DNA from: Methanobacteriota archaeon
Lineage (GTDB): Archaea; Methanobacteriota_B; Thermococci; Methanofastidiosales; Methanofastidiosaceae
NCBI GenBank assembly: GCA_023622545.1
Contig: JAMNZA010000125.1
Location: forward strand, 1-35,882
DNA: 35,882 nucleotides
Direction: 5' to 3'
In this document: positions 471 through 26,315 of the stretch, one piece after another
How positions within the stretch are numbered: position 1 is the first letter of the stretch
Layout: the number at the start of each line of letters is the position of its first letter
Made by a program: the position numbers and the translations under genes
The notes under the pieces: model-generated
The model's input: only the letters and a program-made list of their open reading frames with translations
What the model was told of the DNA's origin: nothing
Database searches by the model: none

Positions 471-1490
471 ATAAATAAAAGAAAAAGTTATCTTAAGATA
501 TCAGCATTGTTCCTTATTGGAATAATGGTAGCATTGACAGCAGGATGCGCCTCTGAGCCAAAAACGGTAAGTGTATACCACGCCGGAAGTTTGGCCCAGC
601 CATTTCAAGCTGTTGAAAAGAATTTTGAAGCCGCTAACAGGAATACTGACGTACAGTTAGAAGCCGCAGGTAGCGTAGACACAATAAGAAAAGTTACGGA
701 ATTGGGAAAGCAAGCAGATGTCATCGGTTCAGCTGATTACAGGCTTATACCCCAGATGATGTATCCAAACTATGCTGACTGGTACATTGTTTTTGCCACA
801 AATGAGATAGTTCTTTGTTACACTGATCAGAGTAAATACGCTAGCGAGATTAATGCTGACAACTGGTATGAAATATTACAAAGACCTGATGTCCTATGGG
901 CATTCGGTAGCCCAAATATTGACCCATGTGGTTACAGGACAGTAATGACCATAAAACTCGCAGACCTTGCATACAACAAGCCGGTATTCAACAATCTACT
1001 TGCCGCACATACTGCAATCACACAGAAGGAAGTAAATGGCAGCTATCTAATAACAACTCCTGAAAATTTAAACCCAGATACTAAATACGTTACAATAAGA
1101 GATAAGTCAGAAGATCTTGTATCTATGACAATAGCCGGTGGAATCGATTATGCCTTCGAGTACAGATCAGTTGCAGAACAGAATAAGCTTAAGTATGTTG
1201 AACTACCCCCTTCAATAAATCTAAAAGACGTAAGATACGAGGATACTTACGCCAAAGTAAAAGTAAAAATATCAAACGGTACAACACAGACAGCAGCCCC
1301 TATAGCATACGGAATAACCGTACCAAAGAATGCAGTAAACAAAGACCTTGGAATCAAATACGTAGAACAAGTTATAAACGAAAATGGTCAGAAGATCTTC
1401 AGAGACATGGGGCAGCCACCAACTGTACCTGCACTAGGTTCAGGGGCCATCCCAGAGCAATTGAAAAAATACGTTGAAATGATAGATTAA
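471..1490 (+). CDS. wtpA: Tungstate/molybdate ABC transporter substrate-binding lipoprotein WtpA
   Basis: This is the extracytoplasmic tungstate/molybdate receptor of an ABC importer. VYHAGSLAQPF near the mature N-terminus is the oxyanion-binding signature of the WtpA/ModA family, and the total length (about 339 residues) fits. With a start at ATA 471 the protein has a classical lipoprotein signal: basic NKRK, a hydrophobic stretch, then LTAGC with the lipidated Cys at residue 26. The first conventional start, TTG at 507, would remove the basic residues. The SD GAGGTGG (460-466) is correctly placed for ATA 471 (or ATT 468) and far too distant for 507. It is the first gene of a ten-gene operon. 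Family assignment is secure; the non-standard start is inferred from context. Confidence 0.93.
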   Translation: MNKRKSYLKISALFLIGIMVALTAGCASEPKTVSVYHAGSLAQPFQAVEKNFEAANRNTDVQLEAAGSVDTIRKVTELGKQADVIGSADYRLIPQMMYPNYADWYIVFATNEIVLCYTDQSKYASEINADNWYEILQRPDVLWAFGSPNIDPCGYRTVMTIKLADLAYNKPVFNNLLAAHTAITQKEVNGSYLITTPENLNPDTKYVTIRDKSEDLVSMTIAGGIDYAFEYRSVAEQNKLKYVELPPSINLKDVRYEDTYAKVKVKISNGTTQTAAPIAYGITVPKNAVNKDLGIKYVEQVINENGQKIFRDMGQPPTVPALGSGAIPEQLKKYVEMID

Positions 1491-19241: not shown

Positions 19242-19988
19242 CTACCTGTACATTGTTGGCACTTCAACCTTATTTTCCTTCTGCATCGAGGCGTTTGTCT
19301 GCTCCATGAGGGTCCTATAGTTTATCTTCACATCCTCCGCCTGCTCCAAAAGCGCCTTGACATCAACGTCTAACTCAATCATCTTGTTCAGTATCTTTAG
19401 GATTGACGCCGCAGCCCCTGGATCTGGGTAGCTCGGGTAGCTCTGTGCTAAGAGCACGGCAGAGTTCAATCCTAATTCCATCGAGTTCTTTAGGACTAGC
19501 GCATAGAAGCCTGAGAGGAAACCTTCTTCTAGGATCTGTACGCCAGAGCCTTCCATCCTCTTTAGTGACTCCTCCCTGTTTGATGTACCAAAGACAGCCG
19601 GCTCCTCGATATTGATCCTCTCCTCTACCGGCGCCCCGCTTAAGGATATTACTAGCTCTGCGTTCTTCGCTTTGTACCACTCGACTAGCTTCCTTGACAG
19701 GAGTGTCCCGAGCTTTGGGTCGACCGGGATTTCGCACAGCACCGCGAGTATCCTTCCTTTCCTGAAAAGCCTTATTGGATTTAGGACCTTCTTCTCGTGG
19801 ACGACCATAACTGGCGGCAGCAGGTCGGATGTTACATACCCTATCTCCTCAAACTTCTGCTCTATGACCATGTGGCTAACTGCAATCGAGCCAACAAGCC
19901 CCACGTCAGGGACGCCCTCGATTATAATTGGATTCTCCACATCAATATCCTTTGTTTCAATAATTATTATATCATCAGAAAGGGCCAT
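19242..19988 (-). CDS. PAC2 family proteasome assembly chaperone (PbaB-type)
   Basis: 248 residues of the PAC2 family, which in archaea includes the PbaA/PbaB proteasome-related chaperones. NPIIIEGVPDVGLVGSIAVS is the family N-terminus, and YPSYPDPGAAASILKILNKM near the C-terminus is also typical. A TATA box (CTATATAAATAA) and SD GGTGAT three bases before the ATG define the start. It is followed by the Hsp20 gene, which fits a role in protein folding or assembly. Binding partner not shown by sequence. Confidence 0.85.
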   Translation of the reverse strand: MALSDDIIIIETKDIDVENPIIIEGVPDVGLVGSIAVSHMVIEQKFEEIGYVTSDLLPPVMVVHEKKVLNPIRLFRKGRILAVLCEIPVDPKLGTLLSRKLVEWYKAKNAELVISLSGAPVEERINIEEPAVFGTSNREESLKRMEGSGVQILEEGFLSGFYALVLKNSMELGLNSAVLLAQSYPSYPDPGAAASILKILNKMIELDVDVKALLEQAEDVKINYRTLMEQTNASMQKENKVEVPTMYR

Positions 19989-23045: not shown

Positions 23046-23741
23046 CTAGATCCGCTCTATAGTAAATCTCTTCTTGTACCTTGTTAGGATCCTAATCGTC
23101 CTCTCTCCCATTATCCCCATAAACAACGCGTTGCCTATGGCATGGCTAACGTCCCAGCCGATGCTTAAGACATAAGTCCTAACAAACGTCTCAAATGTGT
23201 GAGGCTTAACAAAAAAGGCGAAGTGCCAGATGTTCATTATCCACCCGTATAAAAATCCCCAAGCTACTGCAAATACTATTATCAGTTTAAAATTGATCTC
23301 TTTTCTACCAAGATAACCGGCTGTCAAACCGGGTAATCCCCAGCCAATCATCTGAAGCGGCGTCCACGGCCCGTGGCCCAAAAAGAAGTTAGAAACAAAC
23401 GGCGTCAGTGCACCAACAAAGAATCCTGCAATCGGCCCAAACACTAATCCAGAGCAGATGATGAGGGTTGTGCACGGCTGGATCCCCTGGAAGTTTGAAA
23501 ACGGGATCCTTAGCACTGCAGAGATCCCTGATAGCATCGCAATCAATGTCAACTGCTTTGTGCTAAACTCCTTCCTCTCAAACTGGTAGACAAACGCTGC
23601 TATCACAAGCAAAAATATCCCAATTATCTCGTATGGCCACAGCTTAACAATCGTCCTTGATTCGTCAAACACTAATCCCCCGGCAAATAGCAGTATTCCA
23701 ACCCCGATGAATAGAAATGGGAAGATGTCGCTTGATTTTAT
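23046..23741 (-). CDS. ECF transporter S component (substrate-binding membrane subunit)
   Basis: This is the vitamin-binding membrane subunit of an energy-coupling-factor importer, about 231 residues with six or seven helices; TLIAMLSGISAVLRIP and VFGPIAGFFVGALTPFVSNF are typical S-component segments. No ATG is available. The GTG at 23672 would delete the first helix (FPFLFIGVGILLFAGGLVF), which is encoded in frame upstream. The frame reaches an ATA at 23741 three bases after SD GGTGAT and overlapping the ATPase stop as ATAA, just as ATGA would. The same SD spacing precedes the PAC2 ATG. The substrate is inferred to be a corrinoid from the divergent DUF4430 gene. Confidence 0.85.
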   Translation of the reverse strand: MKSSDIFPFLFIGVGILLFAGGLVFDESRTIVKLWPYEIIGIFLLVIAAFVYQFERKEFSTKQLTLIAMLSGISAVLRIPFSNFQGIQPCTTLIICSGLVFGPIAGFFVGALTPFVSNFFLGHGPWTPLQMIGWGLPGLTAGYLGRKEINFKLIIVFAVAWGFLYGWIMNIWHFAFFVKPHTFETFVRTYVLSIGWDVSHAIGNALFMGIMGERTIRILTRYKKRFTIERI

Positions 23742-25384
23742 CCGATCACCTTTAAGAGCTCGCCTACAGTGAGCGTGTCGTCTGGTATGCCATACTTAGC
23801 ATAAGGCTGCACGAGCCTATTAATTTGCGGAGAGAACAAAAGCGCTTTTGAAAGAACGTCCCGCTTGTTGCCATCTGATATGATGTTCCCCTCACTAACA
23901 AGCACTACCCTTTCTGCAAACTCTGCTGCAGTCTCGATGTCATGGGTCACCATGATAACAGTCTTTGCCTTTTCTTTCAGATATGAAATCAGCTCTTTTT
24001 TTAAGAAGTAGTCCATGCCCCTTGTTGGCTCATCAAGGATTAGCATCTCTGGTTCTGATACCAAAACAGACGCTAGTGCAACTCTCTGCCTTTCGCCTCC
24101 GGAAAGGTCGTGCGGGTAGCTCTTCCTGTACTGGTGGATCTTGAACTGCTTTAAGATCTTCTCTACCTTTTTGTCGATCAGCTCATCCTTCATCTCTAAG
24201 TTCCTTAAGACAAACGCTACCTCTTCTTCAACTGTGTCATTAAACAGGTGAAGGTTAGGGTCCTGGAAGACTATGCCAACCTTTTTGATGAGGTCGCTTA
24301 GCTCGTAGTCACCTATCTTTTTGCCAAACAAAAGGACCTTACCCTTTCGTGGCTTCACTAAACCATTCATCAGCTTCACAAGCGTTGTCTTACCGCTCGC
24401 GTTCTTTCCCATAAGGGCGATCATATCGCCCTCGTAAACGTCAAATGAAATGTTCTTCAAGACGTCCTTCTCGTGATCATAAGAAAAATAAACCTTGTCC
24501 ATTGATAGGCAGACTTTGCCACTGCTCTTTACCCGCTCCCAGCTAATCTTATTCTTTGGGTTAATCAGGACATCACTCAGGGCAGTCCTCGCCTCTTTAA
24601 CTGTCAAGGGCAATCCATTACTAAGCCTGTTTTGAAAATGAAGTGAGAGCCTTGTCACAGGCGGGAGCCCAACCTTCCAGTCCTCAAAGTGCGCGGACTT
24701 AATCTTTCTGGGGCTGCCGTCGTAGATGAGCCTCCCGTGGTCTATCATCAGCATCCTGTCCACATGGTGGATGACCCGCTCAAGCCTATGCTCCACGAGC
24801 AGTATGGTCAACCCTAGCTCATCGTTTATCTTCTCTATGACATTCAAAACACTCTCCGCACTCCTCGGGTCAAGCTCTGAAGTCGGCTCGTCTAACAGCA
24901 GGATGTCAGGGTGTGTCGCAAGCGCAGATGCGATCGCAACCTTCTGCTTCTGTCCACCGGAAAGCTCTGATGTCGTCCTGTTTCTAAGGCGCGTAATATT
25001 GACGGCATCAAGTGCCTCTTCAATCCTCTTTCTCATGAGCTCTTTAGAAAAGCAGAGGTTCTCCATGCCAAATGCAATCTCTCTCTCAACTTCATTAGAG
25101 ATCAGCTGGTTCTCCGGGTCCTGGAATACCATGCCAACAGTCTCGGACATCTCGTTTGTCGGGGTCTCTGAAGCATTCTTTCCATTAACGAGCACGGTTC
25201 CAGAGATCCTGCCGCCATAGAAGTTTGGTATCAAGCCGTTTATGGAGCGAAGGAATGTCGATTTTCCGCCGCCAGAAGGGCCTGTGATGACTAAGAACTC
25301 TCCTTCAGAGATCTTGACATTTATCCCATCAAGCGATGGCTCCGCACAATCTGGATAGTAAAATGAGAAATTGTTGAATCTAAT
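23738..25384 (-). CDS. ECF transporter ATPase, two fused ATP-binding domains
   Basis: One polypeptide of about 548 residues with two complete ABC ATPase domains, equivalent to EcfA and EcfA' fused. First domain: Walker A GPSGGGKS (35-42), LSGGQKQ (141-147), LLLDEP; second domain: GKNASGKT, LSGGERQRVALAS, LILDEP. The first conventional start, TTG at 25234, lies after Walker A and would yield a broken domain. The frame is open from 25384, where an ATT overlaps the stop of the T component (ATTAG), eight bases after SD GGTGAT. Start at ATT is therefore inferred. Confidence 0.9.
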   Translation of the reverse strand: MRFNNFSFYYPDCAEPSLDGINVKISEGEFLVITGPSGGGKSTFLRSINGLIPNFYGGRISGTVLVNGKNASETPTNEMSETVGMVFQDPENQLISNEVEREIAFGMENLCFSKELMRKRIEEALDAVNITRLRNRTTSELSGGQKQKVAIASALATHPDILLLDEPTSELDPRSAESVLNVIEKINDELGLTILLVEHRLERVIHHVDRMLMIDHGRLIYDGSPRKIKSAHFEDWKVGLPPVTRLSLHFQNRLSNGLPLTVKEARTALSDVLINPKNKISWERVKSSGKVCLSMDKVYFSYDHEKDVLKNISFDVYEGDMIALMGKNASGKTTLVKLMNGLVKPRKGKVLLFGKKIGDYELSDLIKKVGIVFQDPNLHLFNDTVEEEVAFVLRNLEMKDELIDKKVEKILKQFKIHQYRKSYPHDLSGGERQRVALASVLVSEPEMLILDEPTRGMDYFLKKELISYLKEKAKTVIMVTHDIETAAEFAERVVLVSEGNIISDGNKRDVLSKALLFSPQINRLVQPYAKYGIPDDTLTVGELLKVIG

Positions 25385-26315
25385 CGTAGGCCATCACCCC
25401 TTTAAGCTTCAGTAAAGGCAAAAGGAAGATTTCGCTAGCGAGCATCACTATGATGAAAAACGCCTCTGAGCTTGATTTTATCAGCGGGTCAATCCTCTGG
25501 TAGAACCTAAACGAACCTATACCTGAAAACGCCATGTATAGCGCTATCAAGAACGGCGCTACTGCAACTGCTATCAGCAATATATCTGAAGCTGAAAGCT
25601 TTGCATCTTTATAGAAGCTCCTCTTCTCATACCTGCCAAACCCTCTTGTCTCCATAGCCTCTGCTATCTGGACGCTTCTGTCCAGGCTTTTTGAGAGCAG
25701 AGGGAAGAATACCGCGCCGTACTTCTTTATCCTCTTCCTTAGCCCACCTTTAGAGAAGTCAACTCCTCTAGAGCGCTGCGCGTCCCTGATGTTGTTCAGG
25801 TCAGAAAAAAGCACTGGCACAAACTTCGTAGAGAGTGAAGATACAACAACAGATCTATATGGCAGCTTCAATTTGGTCACCGCTATAAGGAGCTCGTCAG
25901 GGTCAGTTGTCAAGTTCATGAGAGCAAATGCGCCCAGTATTGCGGCAAGCCTTATGCACATGGTAAGTGAGAATAGGAGCTCTTCGAGTGTTATATTGAG
26001 TATGCCGAATATTGGTATCATGAACGGCAGCTGCCACAAGACCGTCTCCCCGTTAGCGTTTACAATCATATTGAACAGTATGACAAACGGGACAAAGAAC
26101 AGGACAAGCCTCATGACGCTCAGCCAGTCCTTGAAAACATTTGATGAGAGCGCTGCAAAAAGCGATGATATGAAGAGCACTGAAAGGATGACCGGGTGCT
26201 CAAAGATCATAGAGATGAGGAGGATTGAAACTAGCCAGGTGATCTTAAGAAACGGAGAGGCGTCGTGGAATATGGACCTCTTCCTTTTATAGACGAGCTC
26301 GAGCATAATATTCAT
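25380..26315 (-). CDS. ecfT: ECF transporter transmembrane component EcfT
   Basis: This subunit couples ATP hydrolysis to the S component. It has about five to six helices and the two coupling-helix motifs ending in Arg-Gly: AQRSRGVDF and AMETRGFGRYEKRS. The length, 311 residues, is typical. Starts at 26315 or 26306 (ATG each) are both possible; the operator copy at 26314-26332 overlaps the first. It is the first gene of the T-A-S operon and divergent from the DUF4430 gene. Confidence 0.9.
   Translation of the reverse strand: MNIMLELVYKRKRSIFHDASPFLKITWLVSILLISMIFEHPVILSVLFISSLFAALSSNVFKDWLSVMRLVLFFVPFVILFNMIVNANGETVLWQLPFMIPIFGILNITLEELLFSLTMCIRLAAILGAFALMNLTTDPDELLIAVTKLKLPYRSVVVSSLSTKFVPVLFSDLNNIRDAQRSRGVDFSKGGLRKRIKKYGAVFFPLLSKSLDRSVQIAEAMETRGFGRYEKRSFYKDAKLSASDILLIAVAVAPFLIALYMAFSGIGSFRFYQRIDPLIKSSSEAFFIIVMLASEIFLLPLLKLKGVMAYD

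Follow-up and report, generated by a model that had tools for sequence, protein, structure and literature searches.

At which codon does the gene for the S component of an ECF transporter begin when its reading frame runs past the first canonical start and into the gene upstream? This question arises in the window analysed here, a stretch of 35,882 nt from a 1.29 Mb metagenome bin, which we compared with nine congeners (Candidatus Methanofastidiosum, an uncultured genus of methanogens). The gene lies on the minus strand (23046..23741), encodes 231 amino acids when read from an ATA codon and matches two family profiles (PF12822, E 1.3e-15; PF07155, E 9e-12). On the same strand it adjoins the gene of an ECF ATPase with two ABC_tran domains (23738..25387, read from an ACG placed by orthology; PF00005 in two stretches) and that of a T component of the CbiQ family with an ordinary ATG start (25380..26315; PF02361, E 5e-34), and profile match and neighbourhood together identify it as an ECF S component.

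The S-component frame is open from its stop at 23046 past ATA 23741-23739, as far as a stop within the ATPase region, and it holds no ATG, GTG or TTG above GTG 23672 on the minus strand. The preliminary description had claimed that the coding frame extends 23 codons above this GTG and encodes a hydrophobic helix there, and our comparison agrees: codons 2-23, the 22 that follow the ATA, yield such a helix (mean Kyte-Doolittle values reach 2.4), are conserved in eight congeners, and show 234, 103 and 472 substitutions at codon positions 1, 2 and 3, the third-position excess of coding sequence. The minus-strand letters ctcttaaaGGTGATcggATAAAATCAAGC contain a GGTGAT Shine-Dalgarno (SD) core at 23750-23745, the ATA at 23741-23739 and the TAA stop of the ATPase at 23740-23738. 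As described earlier, the core stands three bases before the ATA, in the same register as that of the PAC2 ATG at 19988; it belongs to a match of eight contiguous nucleotides to the anti-SD complement at offset 2, which is also the commonest SD spacing for ATG genes in the source genome. GTG 23672 is preceded by an SD match of only 3 nt. The described fusion of start and stop as ATAA is likewise present, such that the start overlaps the upstream stop and the SD lies inside the upstream gene; a search for structured RNA at this overlap found none.

Orthologues of the S component from eight congeners align from residue 1 or 2 with 82-92% identity. Among the nine species that hold the gene, the source genome included, eight start with ATA and one (G004) with ATG. 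The ATPase stop in G004 is TGA and the overlap ATGA, whereas the eight other species have TAA and ATAA; because stop and start overlap, a single G/A change toggles the stop (TGA/TAA) and the start (AUG/AUA) together. An in-frame TGA stands immediately 5' of the ATA in G009. The first canonical codon 3' of the ATA is 9-23 codons away in five species, and in G006, G002 and G003 the next ATG, GTG or TTG comes 50, 65 and 68 codons below, within the conserved protein. At the position of GTG 23672 the congeners have a non-canonical codon, their next canonical one being 9-13 or 50-68 codons below the ATA. Coding conservation thus reaches down to the ATA and leaves no usable canonical start, and one orthologue carries a canonical ATG at this very position. 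On comparative sequence grounds, this AUA/AUG pattern is hard to reconcile with any alternative start, and we consider it highly probable that AUA 23741 is the true start of the S component and exemplifies a relaxed rule for start codons in this genus.

Two further genes in the window appear to begin at non-standard codons. A wtpA-like binding protein (471..1490, plus strand) had been given an ATT start at 468, but the codon three nucleotides after its GGTGGT SD core is ATA 471-473, and the orthologues have TTG (three species), ATC (two) or ATT (one) at this distance. The ECF ATPase had been thought to start at AUU 25384. Eight congeners read ATG ATT where the source genome reads ACG ATT, which places the start one codon higher, at ACG 25387-25385 on the minus strand, and makes ATT 25384-25382 codon 2. 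This ACG occurs in the source assembly only; it may be a genuine start or reflect an error of assembly. The earlier count of three non-standard starts in 36 kb therefore holds, but not the claim that all are AUU or AUA: the codons are AUA, AUA and ACG.

The preliminary description had also suggested that the lineage tolerates or uses such starts, and other genes of the genus bear this out. RadB begins at the same SD register with ATA (seven species) or ATT (two; 9/9 non-canonical), with a stop codon immediately 5' of the ATA in three species. Also at this register, ScpA starts with CTG in 10/10 species, overlapping the upstream TGA as CTGA, and APRT with ACG in 5/8 species and ATG in 3/8. A sugar nucleotidyltransferase with a VILAAGKG loop from residue 4 onwards has ATT, ATA (two species), ATC (four species) or ATG three nucleotides after its SD; in G004 it has an ACG, the spacing of which differs slightly. 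The start of an ABC permease varies, at the same register, among CTG, ATG and TTG. Single species added candidate starts for a catalase (ATA), a ThiF/MoeB protein (ATA) and a HepT-like protein (CTG). In most of the near-cognate-start proteins the Pfam domains begin at residues 2-12, and for APRT, the nucleotidyltransferase and the ABC permease some species have ATG at the same position. Between species, the near-cognate codon either stays the same or is exchanged at a fixed distance from the SD. An archaeal review lists AUG, GUG and UUG as starts (PMC7531240); the start set of this genus appears, from these alignments, to be wider than AUU and AUA, taking in AUA, AUU, AUC, ACG and CUG besides AUG, UUG and GUG. 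Two genes are worth a separate remark. The heme catalase (PF00199) with its apparent AUA start (L120, minus strand, 8151; G003) was found in a genome attributed to an anaerobic methanogen. A FrhB-like ORF of G002 (L053, plus strand, 12222) has an ACG directly after a stop, behind AGGAGGGAT; its domain order looks unusual and it may be a gene fragment, and we set it aside.

An earlier screen had relied only on where homology alignments start; as conservation extends into intergenic DNA, this criterion was too permissive and gave way to a test of the SD register. From 1.27 Mb of the genus (240 kb of G000, 657 kb of G002 and 377 kb of G003) we took 1,242 long ORFs and searched for a 6-nt SD at offset 2 before those codons that lie above every canonical start. 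Near-cognate codons stood three nucleotides after the SD in 17/586 cases vs 2/3,654 for other codons (odds ratio 55, P = 2.6e-13). Some of the 17 hits are orthologues of one another, and together they represent ~14 families. AUA supplied 11 of the 17, making it the commonest non-standard start in the sample, and neither AAG nor AGG was seen as a start in the screen. At offsets 5-6 or 8-9 the genus sample showed no near-cognate enrichment. Canonical codons occupied the same register in 106 ORFs; by this reckoning near-cognates may account for about one in seven starts with the strongest SDs and for at least ~1.4% of the long ORFs sampled. In 400 kb of a Thermococcales control the corresponding counts were 1/224 vs 13/5,279, which is not significant, although the higher GC content of the control (0.55 against ~0.35 in the genus) limits the comparison; this control belongs to a family of the same class (f5), read as Thermococcales from its kinship and genome form. 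Outside the genus, the aligned start of RadB and ScpA, or a position close to it, is mostly occupied by ATG, GTG or TTG. Two cases, suggestive only, came from other families of the order: a DUF460 protein with an apparent ATA start directly after TGA, behind GGTGAT (L209, minus strand, 4566; G011), and a RACo-like protein with an apparent ATC start behind AGGAGGTAAT (L208, plus strand, 8399; G015). The RadB matches in family f2 (L282-L285; G013, G010, G018 and G016) cross one stop, perhaps past the C-terminus.

Could the S component begin after all at a downstream canonical codon, here GTG 23672, with the region above it untranslated? A standard gene-finder would choose this GTG, but it has no SD beyond the 3-nt match and is non-canonical in the congeners, and the region above it evolves like coding sequence; the nucleotidyltransferase would lose its nucleotide-binding VILAAGKG loop if it began downstream. 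We regard this explanation as improbable. Still less probable is a programmed frameshift or stop bypass that joins ATPase and S component and spares the latter a start codon of its own. The two frames do overlap at the TAA; however, an SD at optimal register precedes the ATA, the S frame has a stop directly before the ATA in G009 and an ATG in place of it in G004, and the same type of start occurs in wtpA, which opens a region of its own. Sequencing or assembly errors that turned ATG into ATA might be suspected in a window from a metagenome bin, but the identical ATA in eight separate species assemblies, with AUG in a ninth, excludes them for the S component, and other genes repeat the pattern; only the ACG of the ECF ATPase depends on one assembly. 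We give error next to no weight as a general explanation, and as little to a reassignment of AUA to methionine, as in some mitochondria. The predominance of AUA among the non-standard starts (11/17) would suit reassignment, which would leave the AUU, AUC, ACG and CUG starts unexplained and is refuted by 7761 internal AUA codons, of which 80% are aligned to Ile codons and 1.8% to ATG. Internal AUA therefore means Ile, and the genetic code is unchanged.

Two readings of the near-cognate starts carry most of the weight. Either initiation is relaxed, in that AUA, AUU, AUC, ACG and CUG have become near-normal starts through a change in the ribosome, a factor or an initiator-tRNA modification, a reading to which we give an even chance; or the machinery is not relaxed and non-AUG starts are weak, tolerated where a strong SD compensates and keeping expression low, which is quite possible, if short of an even chance. 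Tolerance of weak starts fits the optimal SD register of every case and the normal look of the known initiation components, but RadB and ScpA lack a canonical start in any of 9-10 species, and the Thermococcales genome, which also has strong SDs, lacks the pattern.

The preliminary description had pointed to initiation factors and the initiator tRNA; of these, aIF1 and the initiator tRNA revealed no defect that would explain the starts, aIF1 being present and the initiator tRNA being the standard CAU type. In archaea, aIF1 reportedly acts against non-canonical starts by discrimination (PMC6237735), and its loss was rejected as the cause, since it was found in 36/37 genomes searched, the whole genus included. 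An altered or second initiator tRNA was rejected as well: a single, nearly identical standard CAU gene occurs in 8/10 genus genomes, and none was found in the other two, which are incomplete bins. Were the initiator tRNA to carry agmatidine, this could account for the AUA starts but would leave those at AUU, AUC, ACG and CUG unexplained. Loss of KsgA/Dim1 fails too, since 9/10 genus genomes have the protein and the remaining one is an 87%-complete bin. So does an altered uS9 tail, since the tail ends RAKRQKSYR in G002, identical to a Thermococcales genome. Separately, KsgA/Dim1 (PF00398) had no match at E 1e-10 in G010, G011, G013, G014 and G016, bins that are 88-92% complete and belong to two sister families, while 14/14 control genomes have it.

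We infer from the sequences that initiation takes place at near-cognate codons with insertion of methionine, and SD-anchored initiation of this kind would be the simplest reading. Near its 3' end the ATPase gene holds a strong SD, which would set the AUA in the P site of the ribosome; there the ordinary Met-tRNAi(CAU) would read it with a third-position mismatch and insert Met. Termination at the overlapping UAA probably assists initiation of the S component; such coupling is not the whole story, because wtpA has no overlapping gene upstream.

In the open-licence literature searched, which mostly leaves out subscription journals and so may miss an earlier mention, we found no report on start codons in Methanofastidiosum and none of AUA starts in archaea. 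One practical consequence is that gene-finders restricted to ATG, GTG and TTG misplace the starts of genes that begin with AUA, AUU, AUC, ACG or CUG. Since the same gene has AUG, AUA, AUU, AUC or ACG in sister species, the genus offers a natural experiment on the requirements of start-codon inspection and a handle on the component behind archaeal stringency, be it initiator-tRNA modification, aIF1, aIF1A, aIF2 or rRNA. If initiation is truly relaxed, Methanofastidiosum would be a lineage of free-living prokaryotes that uses an enlarged set of start codons across its housekeeping genes.

Several known systems invite comparison. In E. coli, infC and pcnB start at AUU, and the infC start gives a feedback role to IF3. 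As there, the genes described here are SD-led and begin at a non-NUG codon, which the ordinary initiator tRNA would read; unlike there, where one or two genes are concerned, many unrelated genes and five codon types are involved in Methanofastidiosum. Autoregulation of the infC type finds no counterpart, the genes being those for a transporter, RadB, APRT, ScpA and others, with no initiation factors among them. The overlaps resemble ATGA coupling, with ATAA (S component) and CTGA (ScpA) in the place of the ATGA that G004 retains; what differs is that one G/A change switches stop (TGA/TAA) and start (AUG/AUA) jointly. Mitochondria use AUA and AUU starts. Non-AUG starts are also known from chloroplasts (PMC9845219). 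The genus shares with these organelles several near-cognate starts that are conserved across species, but it is a free-living archaeon with the standard code, in which AUA is Ile, and with SD-led genes. Initiation-factor mutants resemble the genus in codon choice: relaxed start selection is shown by Sui- yeast and bacterial IF3 mutants, and the near-cognate set is the same, AAG and AGG being absent from it. Here, in contrast, the set belongs to a natural lineage in which aIF1 is present and conserved.
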